Origin: Candidatus Thalassarchaeaceae archaeon
GTDB lineage: Archaea > Thermoplasmatota > Poseidoniia > Poseidoniales > Thalassarchaeaceae
Assembly (NCBI GenBank): GCA_030748775.1
Contig: JASMLH010000006.1
Span: 1-64,000 of the forward strand
DNA length: 64,000 nucleotides
Reading direction: 5' to 3'
Made by a program: the position numbers and the translations under genes. Under the pieces are notes generated by a model, which worked only from the letters and a program-made list of their open reading frames with translations, was not told the origin of the DNA and did no database searches. Within the stretch, counting starts at the first letter, position 1, and every line of letters starts with the position of its first letter. Below are positions 1-8,087 of this stretch, one piece after another.

Positions 1-502
1 AGGGGGTTCCGGCGGTCAACTCGTCGGTCGCTCCCATCCTTGTCCCGTCCAATTCCATTGCATTGGGATCGGGGTGACCTAGTCCGGCGGTAGTGATCGC
101 CTCGCCCCAGCTGGAGTCGGTCCCAAGGTTTCCGCTCACCACACCGTATACCGTGGCGTCTCCACAAGTGAGTAGCCATTCGACGTTGTTCACGAGGACA
201 TCGGTTGAACCAGATGCGACCTTAGCTGTGATTATCAGAGAGTCGACGTTCGTGTCAGTCGCAACTGCGGTTATGGACGAGGTGTTCACCAACACCTGAA
301 TGATGCTGATCTTTCCGGAAATCTCCTTTCTAGTATCGTCGCTGGTTGCCTCTGCGTTCTGTTGTAGTTCCTCTGCGGTCTTGATTATGATCGTCGAGGC
401 CACTGCGGCAACGAGGATCAGTGCAATGAAGACAATCATTGCACCGATACCAATCGAGCCCTCCTCTCGGTTTCTTCCTACTGTCTGGTATTCTTCGCTC
501 AT
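1..502 (-). CDS. Archaellin (archaeal flagellin), 3'-truncated by window edge
   Basis: Major filament subunit of the archaellum, the rotating motility structure of archaea. The ORF track misses it because it runs off the window; I translated it from ATG at 502. The first residues are a short charged leader ending in REEG, followed by SIGIGAMIVFIALILVAAVA, the classic class III signal peptide and hydrophobic helix of archaellins. Cleavage by the prepilin peptidase FlaK/PibD is expected after Gly15. The rest is a beta-rich, Thr/Ser/Asn-rich domain with one Cys, as in archaellin bodies. About 167 residues are visible and the C-terminus is missing. GGTGAT lies about 8 bases before the ATG. Two surface/TPR genes lie upstream on the same strand. 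A type IV pilin other than archaellin is the alternative, but the IGIGAMIVFIA pattern favours archaellin. Confidence 0.85.
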   Translation of the reverse strand, partial: MSEEYQTVGRNREEGSIGIGAMIVFIALILVAAVASTIIIKTAEELQQNAEATSDDTRKEISGKISIIQVLVNTSSITAVATDTNVDSLIITAKVASGSTDVLVNNVEWLLTCGDATVYGVVSGNLGTDSSWGEAITTAGLGHPDPNAMELDGTRMGATDELTAGTP

Positions 503-539
503 ACGCGTATCACCTGTGCCCCCCTGTGGTCGCTTTTCA

Positions 540-552
540 CTTATCATATTAG
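540..552 (-). promoter_or_regulatory. Putative TATA box of the archaellin gene
   Basis: Read on the minus strand the sequence is TAATATGATAAG, an AT-rich TATA-like element about 40 bases before the archaellin ATG in the 89-base gap that separates it from the upstream TPR gene. The position would give a transcript with a short leader carrying the GGTGAT ribosome binding site. It suggests that archaellin has its own promoter. Assigned by eye only. Confidence 0.4.
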
Positions 553-591
553 TGGAGATGGACGGCTATTTGTCCTTCCAAGCAGATGGAA

Positions 592-1671
592 TCAACTGCC
601 AATTCCGACGGCCCTGTTCACGTTGATGACTTCGACGGGGACGTGAACTACTGATCCCGGAGATAGGTTCTCCACCAATGGTAGTCTGACGCTCTCGAAA
701 CCGTCGGGTAGCCATGGGTCGATGATTAGGCCCTCCATCACCTTGGGTGTTCTGTTCTCTAGCCTGACCTGGACCTGGACCTCCCCGTAGTCGGCCATGT
801 ACCCTGTCGTGATGCTGAGGCTGGTGCCTAGAAGAGAAGTCTGAGGGAATGAGCCAGATGGCCTGATCTCGATTCCTATCTCGATGAACCCTTCGGGGGG
901 TATCTCCGGGATCTCGCACATCTTGGGGGAGGCAGTCCAACCGAAGGGTACTGGAGGTGCGAGTCTCATCGGCGAGATGTCGTTCTCACCCATGTTCTCC
1001 AGTGTTACCACCATCAGACCATGGTCCCTTCCCTCTGGCCAGGTAGTTCCTACAGACATGAATAGCCTGTTTACCAGGAACGGGCTGGCTGCTTCGGTGA
1101 CGGCAACTGGGCCCAGTGCTGTGATGGCCTTTTCGAAGGACGCTGCCGCTGATACGAAGTCCTCCTTCTCAATGCTCTTCCTTCCCTGCTTAACCAGGGT
1201 CTGTGCAATCTGCTCGATGTCGCTGAGCTCACCCAGCTCGTTGAGGTGCCTACCCAGTGTGGACAGGGAACGCTCCAGCCCATCCGGCCCCAAGGATGCG
1301 ACTGCCTTCTCCACTGAGTCCGAGGCTGCTCCCCAGTTCCCCTCCCTGAGGAATTGCAGTCCAAGCATTGTGAGGTCCCAGGCATCCCTGTAGTCCTCCG
1401 AGCCTTCCTCGGCCATCTCCTCGAGAGACCTCTCTAGGGAGGAGAGGGCCCGGTATAAGCCTAGAATCTGGGTCTCTAGGAAGTCTGCCTCCTTGCTCAG
1501 CTTCTTGAGTTGCCTCGTCGCCTTCATTGGCCTGTTTCCCCATATGGAGTACTGGATGTTCAGGGCCTCATCCTCGATGTAGTCCAGAGCCTTTAGCGTG
1601 GCCTCGGCTCCTCCCATTGCCTGGTTTGGCTCGGCCAACTCAGTCACCCCCTGACCCTGGTCCGCTGCCAA
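592..1671 (-). CDS. TPR-like cytoplasmic protein with C-terminal Ig-like/NEW3-like domain
   Basis: I do not recognise a named family. The 359-residue protein has no signal peptide or membrane segment. The first ~200 residues are helical and rich in Leu/Glu/Ala, with repeats resembling TPR units (for example FLREGNWGAASDSVEKAV and VSAAASFEKAITALGP). From about residue 215 it switches to a beta-strand pattern with phrases typical of NEW3/CARDB sandwiches (LENMGENDISPMRL, GFIEIGIEIRPSG). The start overlaps the end of the giant surface-protein gene by 32 bases, so translation is probably coupled. An intracellular partner of that protein's cytoplasmic loops is an inference from this coupling. Confidence 0.7.
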   Translation of the reverse strand: MAADQGQGVTELAEPNQAMGGAEATLKALDYIEDEALNIQYSIWGNRPMKATRQLKKLSKEADFLETQILGLYRALSSLERSLEEMAEEGSEDYRDAWDLTMLGLQFLREGNWGAASDSVEKAVASLGPDGLERSLSTLGRHLNELGELSDIEQIAQTLVKQGRKSIEKEDFVSAAASFEKAITALGPVAVTEAASPFLVNRLFMSVGTTWPEGRDHGLMVVTLENMGENDISPMRLAPPVPFGWTASPKMCEIPEIPPEGFIEIGIEIRPSGSFPQTSLLGTSLSITTGYMADYGEVQVQVRLENRTPKVMEGLIIDPWLPDGFESVRLPLVENLSPGSVVHVPVEVINVNRAVGIGS

Positions 1672-4600
1672 GGCTCCCGAGTATCTTCTTGATCTTGATG
1701 GCCCTCAGTTCAATCTCTGCGAGCTCGCTATACAACTTGTCATATGACCTGTCCAGAATCCTGAGTGTGAAGTGCACCAGAATGGGAGAGGAAACGATGA
1801 AAATTAGCATTGTCAATAGAGAAAATGTGCCTATTTCGATTGTCAGAGAGGGAGTCACTAGAACGAATGGCAGGAATGCTAATGGCGCGCAGGAAATGAT
1901 TGCCCTGAGCTCTTTTCTTGTGTTCTCCTGTTCCTTGTCGTGATCCTCTAGGACGGCCCTTGTACCTATCCTTGCCTTCTTCCTATCGTCGTGAATCGTC
2001 TGGAGTTCGGAAGAGCTGAGCCACGCAACAACACCGGCGAACACTACTGCCGACATTGCAGAGAAAGCAGTTAGCCATGATGCTACGTTTCCTAGAGAGA
2101 TTATCCCAAAGGCCATCGATGCCAGATAGGCGGAGGCGTGAAGGCTGTTCGGATTTTCTTCGAGGCCCCTGCTCAGCAGCACCAATGCGCCGAATAGGAC
2201 GAAGAGGCCCGCAATGAAAGCAGATGAAATCTTGAACTCGTAATCCCCAATAGGAATCACTACAGGAGGAGTTGTCCAAGACTGGATCTCCAGGTTGACA
2301 TCGGAGACGTCGTTAGTTATGTTGTTCCCGAAGACGGGTACAGCGAATATTAGGCTTGCAGAGCATTCCAAGTGCTCGGAAGTGCTGTACCAGGGGATGG
2401 AGCCGAGGTTGGCATCCCAACTGGCGTTGAATGTCCCGCTTGCCTCAAGATCGGGGACCTGCCGGTTGACGAAGCTTGAGACCACAGTCGCGTAAGGGGA
2501 TGCTGAGCAAAGGAGCTGGACCTCTGTCCCAGATGGCATCCTGGCTGTCCCAGCATTTACGACCAGGACGTTTATCTTCGTCTTCGAGCCCTCTATCCCT
2601 GTCTGTGGGACGAAGCCAGTAGATCCCAGCATTCCGAAAGATACTCTCTCGATTAGGGGGTCGGACGACTCTGTCATCCTAAGCTTCACTGTGAACTCAG
2701 TCCAGAAAGCCGATGTGGACGGTTCATCGGGGTTCTCAATCCTCAACTTGATGTCCCAACCATCCCCTGATGCTAGATTGAGTTTGTCGGGAATGATGAC
2801 TTGGATAACTAACAATCCACCATGCATTTCTCCGTCGGAGACGAGGTCGTATGGGATGGTGGTAGGCAGGTCCCATCCCGGCCCATTGCATGCCGCCGCC
2901 GTAGATGGTGTTACAGAAAGGCCCTCGCCTACATCGGCCATCTGGCAAGTTCCTTGGTCGATGTCGATAGCCCACTCTGCCTTTGAGTTGAACGTGGAAC
3001 TGATCAGTCTATCTGTGCTTGTCCTCGAAAGGGTGTAGTTGACTGAGGCCACACTAGAGTACCCGATAGAGGGGATGTTTGTCCATGGGATTTCTATCTG
3101 CCTGCATCTCTCATCTGCATTGGCGTCGCATGAGAAGTCTCCGGCTGAGTCGGAGTTCAGGTAGTACTCATCGTCGCTCTGGACCCTGACCACTTGTATC
3201 GGCGTCGTTATGGTGATGGGGTCGAGGGAGATTCCCAAGGGTGTGAAGATCAAGTCCAAAGTCCCTGCCTCGTCCCTGTAGTGATCTCCATGGAGTGCGG
3301 CCAGGCTGTATGTCAGCGAAGTCGACTCTCCAATGTCCAGATCCAGGGTTGTCGAACTGATTACTGCGTTCACGCTGAACCTATCCTCCTCAGTGTCTGA
3401 GTCAGTGGTGGTCCACTGCAAGTTGATTGACATAGGGGCGTTTCCGGCATTCTCGATCTCGTAAGACACAATCCGGTCGTGACCTGGGACGATTGCAATC
3501 CTATCTGGTGCCTTGATGACGTTTACTGCGAACACCGGAAGGACCTCGATGCTGACCAGGGTGGTAGCGATTGGGATGTTCTCTGTCACGTTCATCACCC
3601 TGATGGTGACGTTGTGGACCACCCCTGCCGAGAGGATTACCCCCGATTCCATCGGAGGGAGAGTTATAGATGCGAGGAATCCCTCCATGCCGCCTATACC
3701 TGGTTCGATAGAGACGTTCGAGGCGTTCACCTCGAACGTCCAGTTTCCGGTATCTGAGGGGAAGGTAGCGGTAATGTTGACCCTTTCCATCAGATTTCCG
3801 TGATTTACCAAATCGATTGGGACGCTAAGTGTGGCTCCGGGGGCCGCAGTATACTCCTCGTTCATCATGAACTGGATGAAGTGGAATGGGTTTACCTGCA
3901 CCATAATCCCGCTTCTGTCATACTCTGTTCCGCCATTGGATACGGCGACTTCGAACTTGCTATCTATGTCAGCCCTGGCATCCGTTCCAGCTAGAGCATA
4001 AACCCTCACGATTGCCTGGCCTCCTGGAAGTATGAGTTGCGACTTGTTCATCTGGACCGTCCCGTCGTCTGCGAATGAGACCTGAATCTTGTCTGGATCC
4101 AGGTTGTTGAGAGACAGGTTGAATGTCTTGTTGGAGTTGCCCGTGTTATTCAGTTGGAGCAGGATTGTCGTCTGGCCAAGCCTGTCAATTACTGCGGTAG
4201 AGTTCTCCGGAATCAACTCTGCAGAGACCAGTTCGGTCAGTTGGAAGTATGCGGGTGCTTGAGCCAACAATTCAATGCAATCGAAGACTGAAGCGTTTGT
4301 AGTCGAAGCCACCCAAAAACCGCCACGCAGCTGACATGAGGAAAGTGTATCATCTGGCTTGGTTGTGGTCGCGTTTACCGCTATCCAGATTTGATGAGTG
4401 GTGTCGGCGCTTGCAGTGGCAGGCGGGGTCGCAGTCACAGTGAATGAATTAGAGTCCGAGTTGTCGACCCCCTCCGAGAGGGGGTAGAGATTTGTCCTTG
4501 ACTTCACGCTGTTTATCGATGGCTTGCTGATTTGAACGGTCCAGCCCGGTAGAGGGAGGTGGCCAATCGTGAAGTCCTGAACGTGGTTTCCCGTGTTCTT

Positions 4601-6775
4601 CATAGTCATCGTCGTAGCGATTGCAGTTCCAGGGTCCCCTGTTCCCGTGGGGCCACTTGTCAATTCTGCGTTGGTCATTTCTTCTATAGAAATCGATGCT
4701 ACGCCCGTGGAGTTCTTTGTCACCGCCCCGGGGAAGCCCCCCCAACCTGAAGTGGCCTCGAAAGAGTAGGAGAATACTCCAGCGGCAGGATAGGGGAAGT
4801 CGGTGGTAGGGTGGTGGGATATCGCAATAGTCCCGTATCCTGTCTGGCCGGGGCGAACTTCCATGGAAGATGGAACCATAGAGGCTGTCCACCGTGTGTG
4901 TTCGAAGCCGGTTGTATCTACAGTTGATTCACCGAAATTAACGAAGGTCTTGCCGTGCCCGGGCAGCTCGCCGTTGACAGAGATAGGTGTGAATTGGATC
5001 TGTGTGGCAGTGTCGTCCGAGCCTAGGTTGTTCTTCAGCTCGACTGCGAAATCCACGAACCTGTCTGTGTTGCCACTGAGGAAGTCGTCAACACCTATGT
5101 CGTTGGCCCCTCCAATTATCGAGACGTCGATTTCAACGTACTTGTCGATTATCAGCGTGGTCTGGTTGGTCGCTGGGACGCCCCCTTCCAGGGGAATGGC
5201 TTGGATTGCTAGGTTGATCTGCAAGTCTGCCCACACCTTCCAAGATGGGTCCAGGGGCATCTCGATCTCAGGGGTGATTATGGTGACGGGTATCGTTCTT
5301 TCCTCCCCGGGCATTACGACATCGGTTATCGTTACTGGCGAGAAGATGTTCCAGTATGGTACTGGTTGGATTGCTCCCACGTTTATCTGGTACTGGGTCG
5401 GGGCTGTACCGGTGTTCTTTAGGGTGTAATCGATGGTACGATCGGTGCCTGGGGTGATGTTTGCAAAGTCCTCTACGTAGACTGCTGGGACCGGGGGTGT
5501 TGTGCCTGGCCCTGTCCCAGGTTGAATGTAGCTGTGATTCTGCATGATGGAAGCCTCGTAGAGTCCTCCTGCCATCACAGTGGTAGTCGCTTCTAGCAAG
5601 TAGCCCATTGCAACGCTCTGGACAGATATGGTCACTGAAACCGCATCTCCCAGACCGGCAGTGACCGGGACTGAGACCTCTACCTGGATCGCACTGGTTG
5701 CGCCCGCAGAAACCTCGAGTATCCCCGCTGGGCAGACTGAGCAGTGCATGTTTACGGGGGCATTTACCCAGTATGGCGCTCCAGTGGAGGTGTTCGACTG
5801 TATCACTATGAAGGTGTCGTCCTCAGTGCCTGAGTTCTGAAGGATGAAGTTCAGAGTCGATGACGCTCCAGGGTCAAGGTTCCTGTCGTTTGCCGCAATC
5901 AGTGTTGCAGTCATCGTTGTGAATGTGATTGTTCTTGATTCTATGGTCAGTGATGATGATCCAGCTCCAGTGATTAGTAGGCTTCCCCCCAGAGTGTACG
6001 TCCCCTCAAGGTTGGTCCCATCGAACGATAGGGAAATATTCTGAGGCTCGGGAGGGTTTGCCAGACTTCCTGCGATGACGGAAACCGTGTCCGAAGTAAC
6101 TGGAGTCTGGGCCCCAGATATCGATGAGGTGAGAGTCAGTTGGGCCGTCACGGTGACATTCTGGTTTCCTGTGTTGACCACTGTTATGGCTCCGGCCCAG
6201 AGGGCCCTGGCGACATTTTGACCGTCTACAGGAAGTGAGTCAGCGATTCGTTCTGCATCCTCCACGGGGACAACGGCAATCCCAGTCAGGGACATCTCAT
6301 CGTTGGAAGAGTCGGAATCTGTGGAAGAGCCTCCTACGACCCACTCCGCCCTGAGGTTGTAGCCCGAGCCGACTGAAGCGTCCCAATACAGTACGTGGTC
6401 CTGCTGTTCAATTGGGTTGATGCTGACGTTCCTTGAGTCAACCAGGACCCCATTGACCTTCAGTGTGAGGTTACCATCAGCAGCAGACCCGCCGATATTC
6501 TGAATCGTGACCCGGATGATGTGAATCTGTGGGGCTAGGGTTGGTACCCCCGATACCATTACTGATGGAGTCGTGACGGAGAGGTCGGTTACTGCAACGT
6601 CAGCATCGGTGTTCTTCCCGGACGAAGGTAGTACTGTTGGCTGGACCGATTCGCCTGGTGCGTTGGCCAACAGGGGAAGCAGGAACAGAAGAGCGACGAG
6701 AAATGCGGCCGTGCATGCATTTCTTGGGGTTCCTCGGGGCTCCTTGCCCCTTCTTGAGATTGCTACGGTTCCCAT
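1640..6775 (-). CDS. Giant surface protein with NEW3/CARDB-type repeats and C-terminal multi-pass anchor
   Basis: 1711 residues. A signal peptide (positive n-region, then AAFLVALLFLLPLLANA) is followed by about 1450 residues of beta-sandwich repeats rich in Thr, Asn, Ser and Val. Recurring phrases such as LKNTGTAPTQYQINV, MKNTGNHVQDFTI, LNNTGNSNKTFNL and IENAGNAPMSINL are typical of NEW3/CARDB-like domains. Many N-x-S/T sequons suggest glycosylation. The C-terminus is unusual for a surface-layer protein: about five hydrophobic segments from residue ~1500, separated by a charged loop (DDRKKARIGTRAVLEDHDKE), ending in a basic/acidic tail likely to be cytoplasmic. It is first in a minus-strand cluster with the TPR gene and archaellin. 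GGAGGGG precedes the start. The role is unknown; adhesion, cell-envelope scaffolding or a filament-associated receptor all fit. Confidence 0.75.
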   Translation of the reverse strand: MGTVAISRRGKEPRGTPRNACTAAFLVALLFLLPLLANAPGESVQPTVLPSSGKNTDADVAVTDLSVTTPSVMVSGVPTLAPQIHIIRVTIQNIGGSAADGNLTLKVNGVLVDSRNVSINPIEQQDHVLYWDASVGSGYNLRAEWVVGGSSTDSDSSNDEMSLTGIAVVPVEDAERIADSLPVDGQNVARALWAGAITVVNTGNQNVTVTAQLTLTSSISGAQTPVTSDTVSVIAGSLANPPEPQNISLSFDGTNLEGTYTLGGSLLITGAGSSSLTIESRTITFTTMTATLIAANDRNLDPGASSTLNFILQNSGTEDDTFIVIQSNTSTGAPYWVNAPVNMHCSVCPAGILEVSAGATSAIQVEVSVPVTAGLGDAVSVTISVQSVAMGYLLEATTTVMAGGLYEASIMQNHSYIQPGTGPGTTPPVPAVYVEDFANITPGTDRTIDYTLKNTGTAPTQYQINVGAIQPVPYWNIFSPVTITDVVMPGEERTIPVTIITPEIEMPLDPSWKVWADLQINLAIQAIPLEGGVPATNQTTLIIDKYVEIDVSIIGGANDIGVDDFLSGNTDRFVDFAVELKNNLGSDDTATQIQFTPISVNGELPGHGKTFVNFGESTVDTTGFEHTRWTASMVPSSMEVRPGQTGYGTIAISHHPTTDFPYPAAGVFSYSFEATSGWGGFPGAVTKNSTGVASISIEEMTNAELTSGPTGTGDPGTAIATTMTMKNTGNHVQDFTIGHLPLPGWTVQISKPSINSVKSRTNLYPLSEGVDNSDSNSFTVTATPPATASADTTHQIWIAVNATTTKPDDTLSSCQLRGGFWVASTTNASVFDCIELLAQAPAYFQLTELVSAELIPENSTAVIDRLGQTTILLQLNNTGNSNKTFNLSLNNLDPDKIQVSFADDGTVQMNKSQLILPGGQAIVRVYALAGTDARADIDSKFEVAVSNGGTEYDRSGIMVQVNPFHFIQFMMNEEYTAAPGATLSVPIDLVNHGNLMERVNITATFPSDTGNWTFEVNASNVSIEPGIGGMEGFLASITLPPMESGVILSAGVVHNVTIRVMNVTENIPIATTLVSIEVLPVFAVNVIKAPDRIAIVPGHDRIVSYEIENAGNAPMSINLQWTTTDSDTEEDRFSVNAVISSTTLDLDIGESTSLTYSLAALHGDHYRDEAGTLDLIFTPLGISLDPITITTPIQVVRVQSDDEYYLNSDSAGDFSCDANADERCRQIEIPWTNIPSIGYSSVASVNYTLSRTSTDRLISSTFNSKAEWAIDIDQGTCQMADVGEGLSVTPSTAAACNGPGWDLPTTIPYDLVSDGEMHGGLLVIQVIIPDKLNLASGDGWDIKLRIENPDEPSTSAFWTEFTVKLRMTESSDPLIERVSFGMLGSTGFVPQTGIEGSKTKINVLVVNAGTARMPSGTEVQLLCSASPYATVVSSFVNRQVPDLEASGTFNASWDANLGSIPWYSTSEHLECSASLIFAVPVFGNNITNDVSDVNLEIQSWTTPPVVIPIGDYEFKISSAFIAGLFVLFGALVLLSRGLEENPNSLHASAYLASMAFGIISLGNVASWLTAFSAMSAVVFAGVVAWLSSSELQTIHDDRKKARIGTRAVLEDHDKEQENTRKELRAIISCAPLAFLPFVLVTPSLTIEIGTFSLLTMLIFIVSSPILVHFTLRILDRSYDKLYSELAEIELRAIKIKKILGSLGSGPGSGGD

Positions 6776-6905: not shown

Positions 6906-8087
6906 GTGGCGGACGCTGTATCCCTGGTGCTCATTGCAATCATCGTAATGGCAACTGCTAGTGGAGCGTACCGAATCCTACAATCTGGAAAGCGCAGGAC
7001 CATCCTGCCATCTACTCGACGGAACCTACCCGAACACATTTCTGATGCAGCTATAGCTAGGATGGGGAGAAGAGGCAGAGGAAGGGACAGGTCACTCGTT
7101 CAGACCGCCACTGATTCTCTTGGAACTGGTTCCGACGCCATTGGTGCTGGAGTCCAGGAAGCTGAGATCAGTACCAAAGAAGTCTCGGCTCTCGAGAAGA
7201 GGCTGGAGCGTGAGGGCGCCAAGAGAGGGGCAGTACAGATCAGCCTGATGTGGGATAACTGGAACGACCTTGACTTGCACGTTATCACTCCATCCGGGGA
7301 GCACGTCTATCACGACAACAGAAAGTCCAGCTGTGGCGGAGAGCTTGACATAGACATGAATTTCAAGCCTACATCCAAGTCTCCCGTCGAGAACATAGTT
7401 TGGACAAGGACGCCTCCTCCGGGGATATACAGAATTGGAGTGAGGCACTACAAGATCCATACAAAGGGCATTTTCTCATGGATTCCTCTCCTTTCCAGCG
7501 TCCACAGAAAGAACGAGACGGCTTTCACCGTGAGCGTGACCATAGGCGAGAGCAAGAGGTTCTTCGAGGGGTCACTGGTGAAAAGCAACGAGTTGCAGTT
7601 CGTAGCAAAGTTCGCTATCGCTGGACCCGATGGAGAAGTTCCTGATGAAGCCCGGGAAAGCGTCACCGTACCCGGTGAGCAGGAGGATTTCACAGAGGCC
7701 CGTGATATTGATGCCATGAGGCGTAGAGTGGGTACCGTCCAAGATGGGGTTTCAGTGGAGCTAAGCTGGGAGTCCGGAGCTGACCTTGGTCTTTCCATTG
7801 TGGATGGAGATGGTGCCGAGGTGTCGTTCTTCGAACCCGAGGGGATAGAGGGGGCTTCGTTCGACATGGGTGATTTCGCGCCGGGTGAGTTGCATAGAAG
7901 AATCGCATGGACAGACAGTCCTCCCACCGGAAGTTATACCGTCAGGGTAAGGCATTTCGAGAGAGAAGGAGAGGGGGAAGAGACTGAGTTCAAGGTAAGT
8001 CTCAACAACCGCGGTGACGAGCAGGAGATGACCGGTACCATCCCAAGTGATGGTTCGATAATCGAAGCGGGGACCTTTGAGATTTAG
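6906..8087 (+). CDS. Membrane-anchored protein with two DUF2135/YfaP-like domains
   Basis: 393 residues from a GTG start. An N-terminal hydrophobic helix ([18 protein letters not shown]) probably anchors it, followed by a basic linker. Residues ~107-225 contain [20 protein letters not shown] and [18 protein letters not shown], the pattern of DUF2135/YfaP-type beta domains that often accompany von Willebrand-like or MoxR modules. A second copy starts near residue 280 ([20 protein letters not shown]) but has lost the DLDLHV acidic cluster, so it is degenerate. Both copies end in a PPPG/SPPTGSYxVxVRH block. It diverges from the giant surface-protein gene across a 130-base region. Function unknown; it may bind metal through the acidic motif of domain 1. 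Confidence 0.65.

Follow-up and report, generated by a model that had tools for sequence, protein, structure and literature searches.

Which machine is served by a giant surface protein and its cytoplasmic neighbour when both are encoded next to an archaellin? The question arises at one end of the window, by which we mean the whole 64,000-nucleotide stretch that was analysed (contig JASMLH010000006.1 of Candidatus Thalassarchaeaceae archaeon, order Poseidoniales). An earlier note on this DNA had proposed an undescribed coupled surface-to-cytoplasm module, perhaps tied to the archaellum, and conserved gene linkage now backs that proposal. The two proteins form a real, conserved and apparently unnamed accessory module of the archaellum.

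Anatomy of the giant protein and its partner

The giant gene (1640..6775, minus strand) encodes 1,711 residues. From N- to C-terminus, the open reading frame, hydropathy and AlphaFold model give a signal-peptide-like helix, a long beta-rich part and a helical block. The export signal region covers about residues 1-40 (6656..6775, minus strand), with a hydropathy peak at residue 29 and a putative cleavage site. It is followed by an ectodomain of beta repeats, roughly 1,470 residues long (about residues 41-1517; 2225..6655, minus strand), of which residues 1190-1517 were modelled and the rest is assigned from weak profile matches and from relatives. In Pfam searches the protein itself gave weak matches below cut-off (CARDB, E 0.025; NEW3, E 0.66). 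Giants of relatives passed the cut-offs with CARDB (54.5 bits, L174), NEW3 (27.8 bits, L074) and Ig_VWA7 (68.1 bits, L178), comfortably so in three of the four relatives scanned; the fourth, L143, was marginal for CARDB. Structure searches returned generic Ig-type matches only. Hydropathy profiles of 30 giant homologues revealed the signal-peptide-like helix and the C-terminal helix block in all except one that is cut by a contig end. The giant is much as first described, with 1711 residues, a signal-peptide-like helix and beta repeats of apparent NEW3/CARDB type, and it is probably exported with its ectodomain outside the cell.

The C-terminal block was modelled by AlphaFold with good quality (residues 1190-1711, mean pLDDT 85.3). 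Beta domains precede helices at 1518-1539, 1542-1560 and 1568-1587, a short helix from 1630 and a long helix at 1650-1703, which begins as TM5 and extends some 30 residues into the cytoplasm. Hydropathy and AlphaFold thus uphold the roughly five C-terminal membrane helices read earlier from the sequence, and together with the alignment they define a five-helix membrane anchor with a cytoplasmic C-terminal helix (residues 1518-1703; 1667..2224, minus strand). Since the five crossings start from outside, the TM3-TM4 loop and the C-terminal tail are predicted to lie inside the cell. This loop is charged (residues 1588-1629; 1889..2014, minus strand; alignment and AlphaFold) and is modelled with two cytoplasmic helices between the third helix and the short one at 1630. 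Its E, D, G and H residues are invariant throughout the order. The charged loop described in the earlier note is therefore present in the giant of the window, but it is not universal, its length in distant giants ranging from nil or almost nil (families f8 and f18) to long. For this reason, the helix after TM5 is the more general cytoplasmic element of the giant. In a between-family test the loop was moderately conserved, its core ranking among roughly the highest 9% of windows of equal length, which rules it out as the best-conserved part of the protein.

In the other NEW3 surface proteins that we checked, the C-terminus carries one helix or none, against five in the giants. With the giant profile they reach no more than 85 bits, whereas most of the distant five-helix giants score 140-220 bits; a giant fragment at L138 scores 57 bits. 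A relationship of the anchor to ArlJ or another operon protein was considered and rejected, as the anchor profile showed no likeness to ArlF, ArlG, ArlH, ArlJ or ArlB.

The partner (592..1647, minus strand) probably starts at GTG 1647 or TTG 1638. Its longest open reading frame (592-1671, minus strand; 359 residues, TTG start) runs 32 bases over the end of the giant gene. Relatives mostly start at -8, -4, 0 or +1 relative to the giant's stop, and the candidates that match them here are GTG at -8 and TTG at +1. Because relatives start so close to this stop, the 32-base gene overlap reported before, although present in the longest reading frame, is probably spurious and due to the choice of start codon. 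The partner model (pLDDT 75.6) has a helical N-terminal half followed by two Ig/NEW3-like domains. The all-helical half (1117..1608, minus strand; model and alignment) includes a TPR-like stretch that the alignment identifies as an insertion confined to genera g1 and g10 of family f1, and TPR_12 scores 17.3 bits against a cut-off of 30.1. Hence, contrary to the earlier reading, the TPR label fits a local feature of the partner and not the protein as such, whose family-wide core consists of a helical hairpin and two NEW3-like domains. The NEW3-like C-terminal part had been recognized correctly, but as one domain, whereas the model shows two in tandem (622..1068, minus strand; in relatives PF10633, E 3.7e-4 at L075). 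Neither protein matched a known archaellum component (ArlA-ArlK, ArlX) in NCBIfam or Pfam, and domain searches found no signalling domain in either.

Linkage of the pair to the archaellum

The third gene of the locus is an archaellin (2..547, minus strand; likely start ATG 502), identified by PF01917 (70 bits, E 3.5e-19) and by archaellins in the PDB. The identity given to it earlier is confirmed, but the gene is incomplete, since it runs off the window at the contig end (G000:C33:1), and it is the only archaellum gene visible in the window besides the pair. Contigs, that of the window included, often end in or beside archaellin genes, which look like an assembly break point.

Relatives reveal the rest of the operon, in the order giant, partner, archaellin(s), ArlC/D/E-like, ArlF-like, ArlG, ArlH, ArlI and ArlJ. 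The ArlC/D/E-like gene is recognized by a weak FlaC match and by an LY...NPF motif that it shares with a clear ArlC/D/E of family f11; the ArlF-like gene was named from its position and class, without a curated match. Since ArlF-like, ArlG and ArlC/D/E-like genes are all there, the motor core is complete, and the pair comes on top of it instead of standing in for a missing core gene; in particular, an ArlC/D/E-like gene in the same operon excludes the partner as an ArlC/D/E substitute.

Several features around the operon vary. The ArlF-like protein (L064:12604-13302, L075:9367-10029) carries an extra glycine-rich insert of GSGY/GGTGY type in genera of both families of the order, absent from g4 and g8. 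Directly upstream of the giant, f2 and the f1 genera g4 and g8 encode a small basic helical protein that we could not assign to a family (L076:4171-4671, L069:3442-3882). In the window, a divergent neighbour (6906-8087, plus strand) has weak PPC-like domains, and a relative of it with 1,061-1,089 residues separates the giant from the small upstream gene in genus g4 (L071:9078).

Within the order (146 genomes, two families) the partner was found in 86 genomes and ArlJ in 89; both occur in 81, neither in 52, and 13 are discordant. Wherever partner and ArlJ share a contig (54 genomes), the two genes have the same orientation, and the partner lies 4.9-7.0 kb upstream of ArlJ (54/54); in 26 genomes they are on separate contigs. 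Eight ArlJ-positive genomes gave no partner match. Four of their loci were read (L084, L085, L086, L088) and begin or end at a contig edge within the operon, while the giant sequence is present in the other four genomes (G005, G013, G116, G138). The five partner-only genomes include that of the window, where the contig ends in the archaellin. The neighbourhood of the three genes, which the earlier note had proposed to test, is conserved in related genomes. Giant and partner are encoded with ArlB, ArlH, ArlI and ArlJ and are present or absent together with the archaellum. A pair that is lost together with the motor is not a general wall protein.

The module is broader in occurrence than first supposed, as the pair is also found in distant Thermoplasmatota families, inside or outside the archaellum operon. 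These cases were missed by the first profile search and were reached through weak partner matches. In family f11 (L143, L170, L171) the order is giant, partner, ArlB, ArlC/D/E, ArlF, ArlG, ArlH and onward. The pair likewise heads the operon in f28 (L174), and in f12 (L182) the partner heads it and adjoins ArlB. No archaellum genes adjoin the pair in f8 and f18, and in f26 it lies at a contig end. Close spacing of giant and partner is common to the order and the other families. The distant giants that were read have 898-1,672 residues, some being cut by contig ends, and end in a five-helix block. Profile comparison supports homology of the partners between families (probability 89.7%). Anchors of the order and of f11 gave no profile similarity and appear to have diverged past sequence recognition; kinship of these giants is supported by the agreement of layout, full-length profile score and partner homology. 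A scan of a genome collection with two narrow patterns returned five loci, all in Thermoplasmatota MAGs.

Some archaellum clusters have peculiarities of their own. Two consecutive ArlI-like ATPase genes, both with E below 1e-160 to the ArlI profile, occur between ArlH and ArlJ or at the cluster end in L125, L126, L130 and L122 (families f34, f16 and f32). Genome G209 appears to hold two archaellum clusters, L119 (C14) and L174 (C117), one beside CheW and CheA-like genes and without the pair, the other with giant and partner. At L172 (G188, f11) the giant, the partner, an archaellin and two archaellum-like genes are not followed by ArlG to ArlJ, and the genome gave no strong ArlH match; either the operon has decayed or been rearranged, or the assembly is at fault.

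Possible roles of the pair in the motor

That giant and partner are members of the archaellum system is, in our view, nearly certain. Their role is a matter of weighing. The S-layer is the presumed anchorage of the stator proteins ArlF and ArlG, and the literature treats it as an open question how Thermoplasmatales, which lack an S-layer, manage this (PMC12448462; PMC12024892); these organisms nevertheless swim (PMC12448462). Cells of the order studied here may also be without the usual protein wall. Our preferred reading is that the pair serves as a dedicated envelope anchor or stator scaffold of the archaellum. Three points lead us to favour it: the two proteins bridge the distance between an outside rod and the cytoplasmic ring; the pair is lost with the motor and hence is not made of general wall proteins; and Thermoplasmatales, members of the same phylum, have no S-layer, the presumed attachment site of ArlF. 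Once exported, the ectodomain would surround the motor base as a stiff scaffold standing on the membrane, to which the five-helix anchor would fix it. On the cytoplasmic side, the C-terminal helix of the giant, plus the TM3-TM4 loop where present, would bind the partner, and the partner in turn might connect, through its helices and beta domains, to the static ring (ArlC/D/E-like) or to ArlH. Such a module would provide the fixed point against which the ArlF/ArlG stator and the ring push, the job of the S-layer in other archaea. Gene linkage, co-loss and anatomy are observed, whereas complex formation and torque anchoring are inferred.

Operon synteny, co-occurrence with ArlJ, close spacing and the shared five-helix anatomy support the anchor reading. 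Against it weigh the many archaellum-bearing Thermoplasmatota without the pair (it was not seen in the sampled archaellum operons of f16, f24, f27, f30, f37 and f43), the motile Thermoplasmatales that lack it, and f8 and f18, in which it stands apart from archaellum genes. Since motile Thermoplasmatales do without the pair and the S-layer status of the order is unsettled, we keep the anchor role at slightly less than an even chance. The fuller version is more tentative still: that these are undescribed archaellum components replacing the S-layer as torque anchor, a giant rod with a cytoplasmic clamp that is old in Thermoplasmatota and was lost with motility.

Among the other roles, an assembly or placement factor survives best, though we consider it unlikely. 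The pair would then mark the pole or recruit and organize the motor, like a polar cap organizer, and bear no load. Its two closely spaced genes are the first of the operon and the helical cytoplasmic partner could form a scaffold, but a cytoplasmic organizer has no need of so long an ectodomain, and searches gave no homology to known placement proteins.

A sensor or regulator is improbable, and less likely than an anchor. Particles, load or surface contact would act on the ectodomain, and the partner, instead of chemotaxis proteins, would relay the signal to the motor. No CheW-domain protein was found in 60 genomes around that of the window, although positive controls worked and many of these genomes encode an archaellum, and the Che genes of G209 adjoin its other archaellum operon, not the pair-bearing one. 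Across the phylum this does not hold up as a replacement of chemotaxis, because among 81 genomes outside the order with ArlH the presence of CheW was unrelated to that of the partner (2/15/10/54; Fisher p = 1); the lack of a signalling domain in either protein also speaks against it. Separately, archaella in the 60 genomes related to the window may run without canonical chemotaxis.

Least probable is a surface coat protein or adhesin whose expression just happens to accompany that of the archaellum: NEW3/CARDB repeats are common among surface proteins and Tully et al. (PMC6336850) tie MGII motility to the use of algal oligosaccharides and particles, but a five-helix anchor with a closely spaced cytoplasmic partner would be unusual for an adhesin, and the co-loss with the archaellum also speaks against this reading.

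Relation to known systems

A putative motility operon of MGII with FlaGHIJ, flagellins and conserved un-annotated genes was described in MGIIa and some MGIIb (Tully 2019, PMC6336850, Fig. 4) and is very probably the operon studied here. The archaellum distribution in the order matches the motility distribution published there, namely all MGIIa and only some MGIIb (PMC6336850), which agrees with taking the order to be Poseidoniales (MGII). The extra genes are hypothetical in that account, and the available parts of its text do not give the domain anatomy, the partner relation, a mechanism or an occurrence outside MGII. A literature search on the archaellum with CARDB, or with TPR or large surface proteins, returned no relevant paper within its open-access scope, which leaves subscription papers uncovered.

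Motor anchoring without an S-layer has also prompted a study in Chloroflexota (PMC13319060), and a co-inherited envelope protein and cytoplasmic partner are a concrete candidate for such anchoring. If true, a rotary motor with few known parts would gain two conserved components, in abundant ocean archaea.

In attaching the motor to the envelope, the pair would share the task proposed for the periplasmic ArlF/ArlG stator. However, ArlF and ArlG are small, archaellin-like and also encoded in this operon, whereas the giant crosses the membrane several times and has an extended repeat ectodomain. ArlX of Thermoproteota and the ArlC/D/E ring are likewise membrane-tethered or cytoplasmic static ring parts; here an ArlC/D/E-like protein is separately encoded, and the partner differs in having NEW3-like domains and no membrane helix. 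In its type of ectodomain the giant resembles the S-layer and the single-anchor NEW3/CARDB surface proteins, from which its five-helix anchor, against at most one C-terminal helix in those checked, sets it apart.
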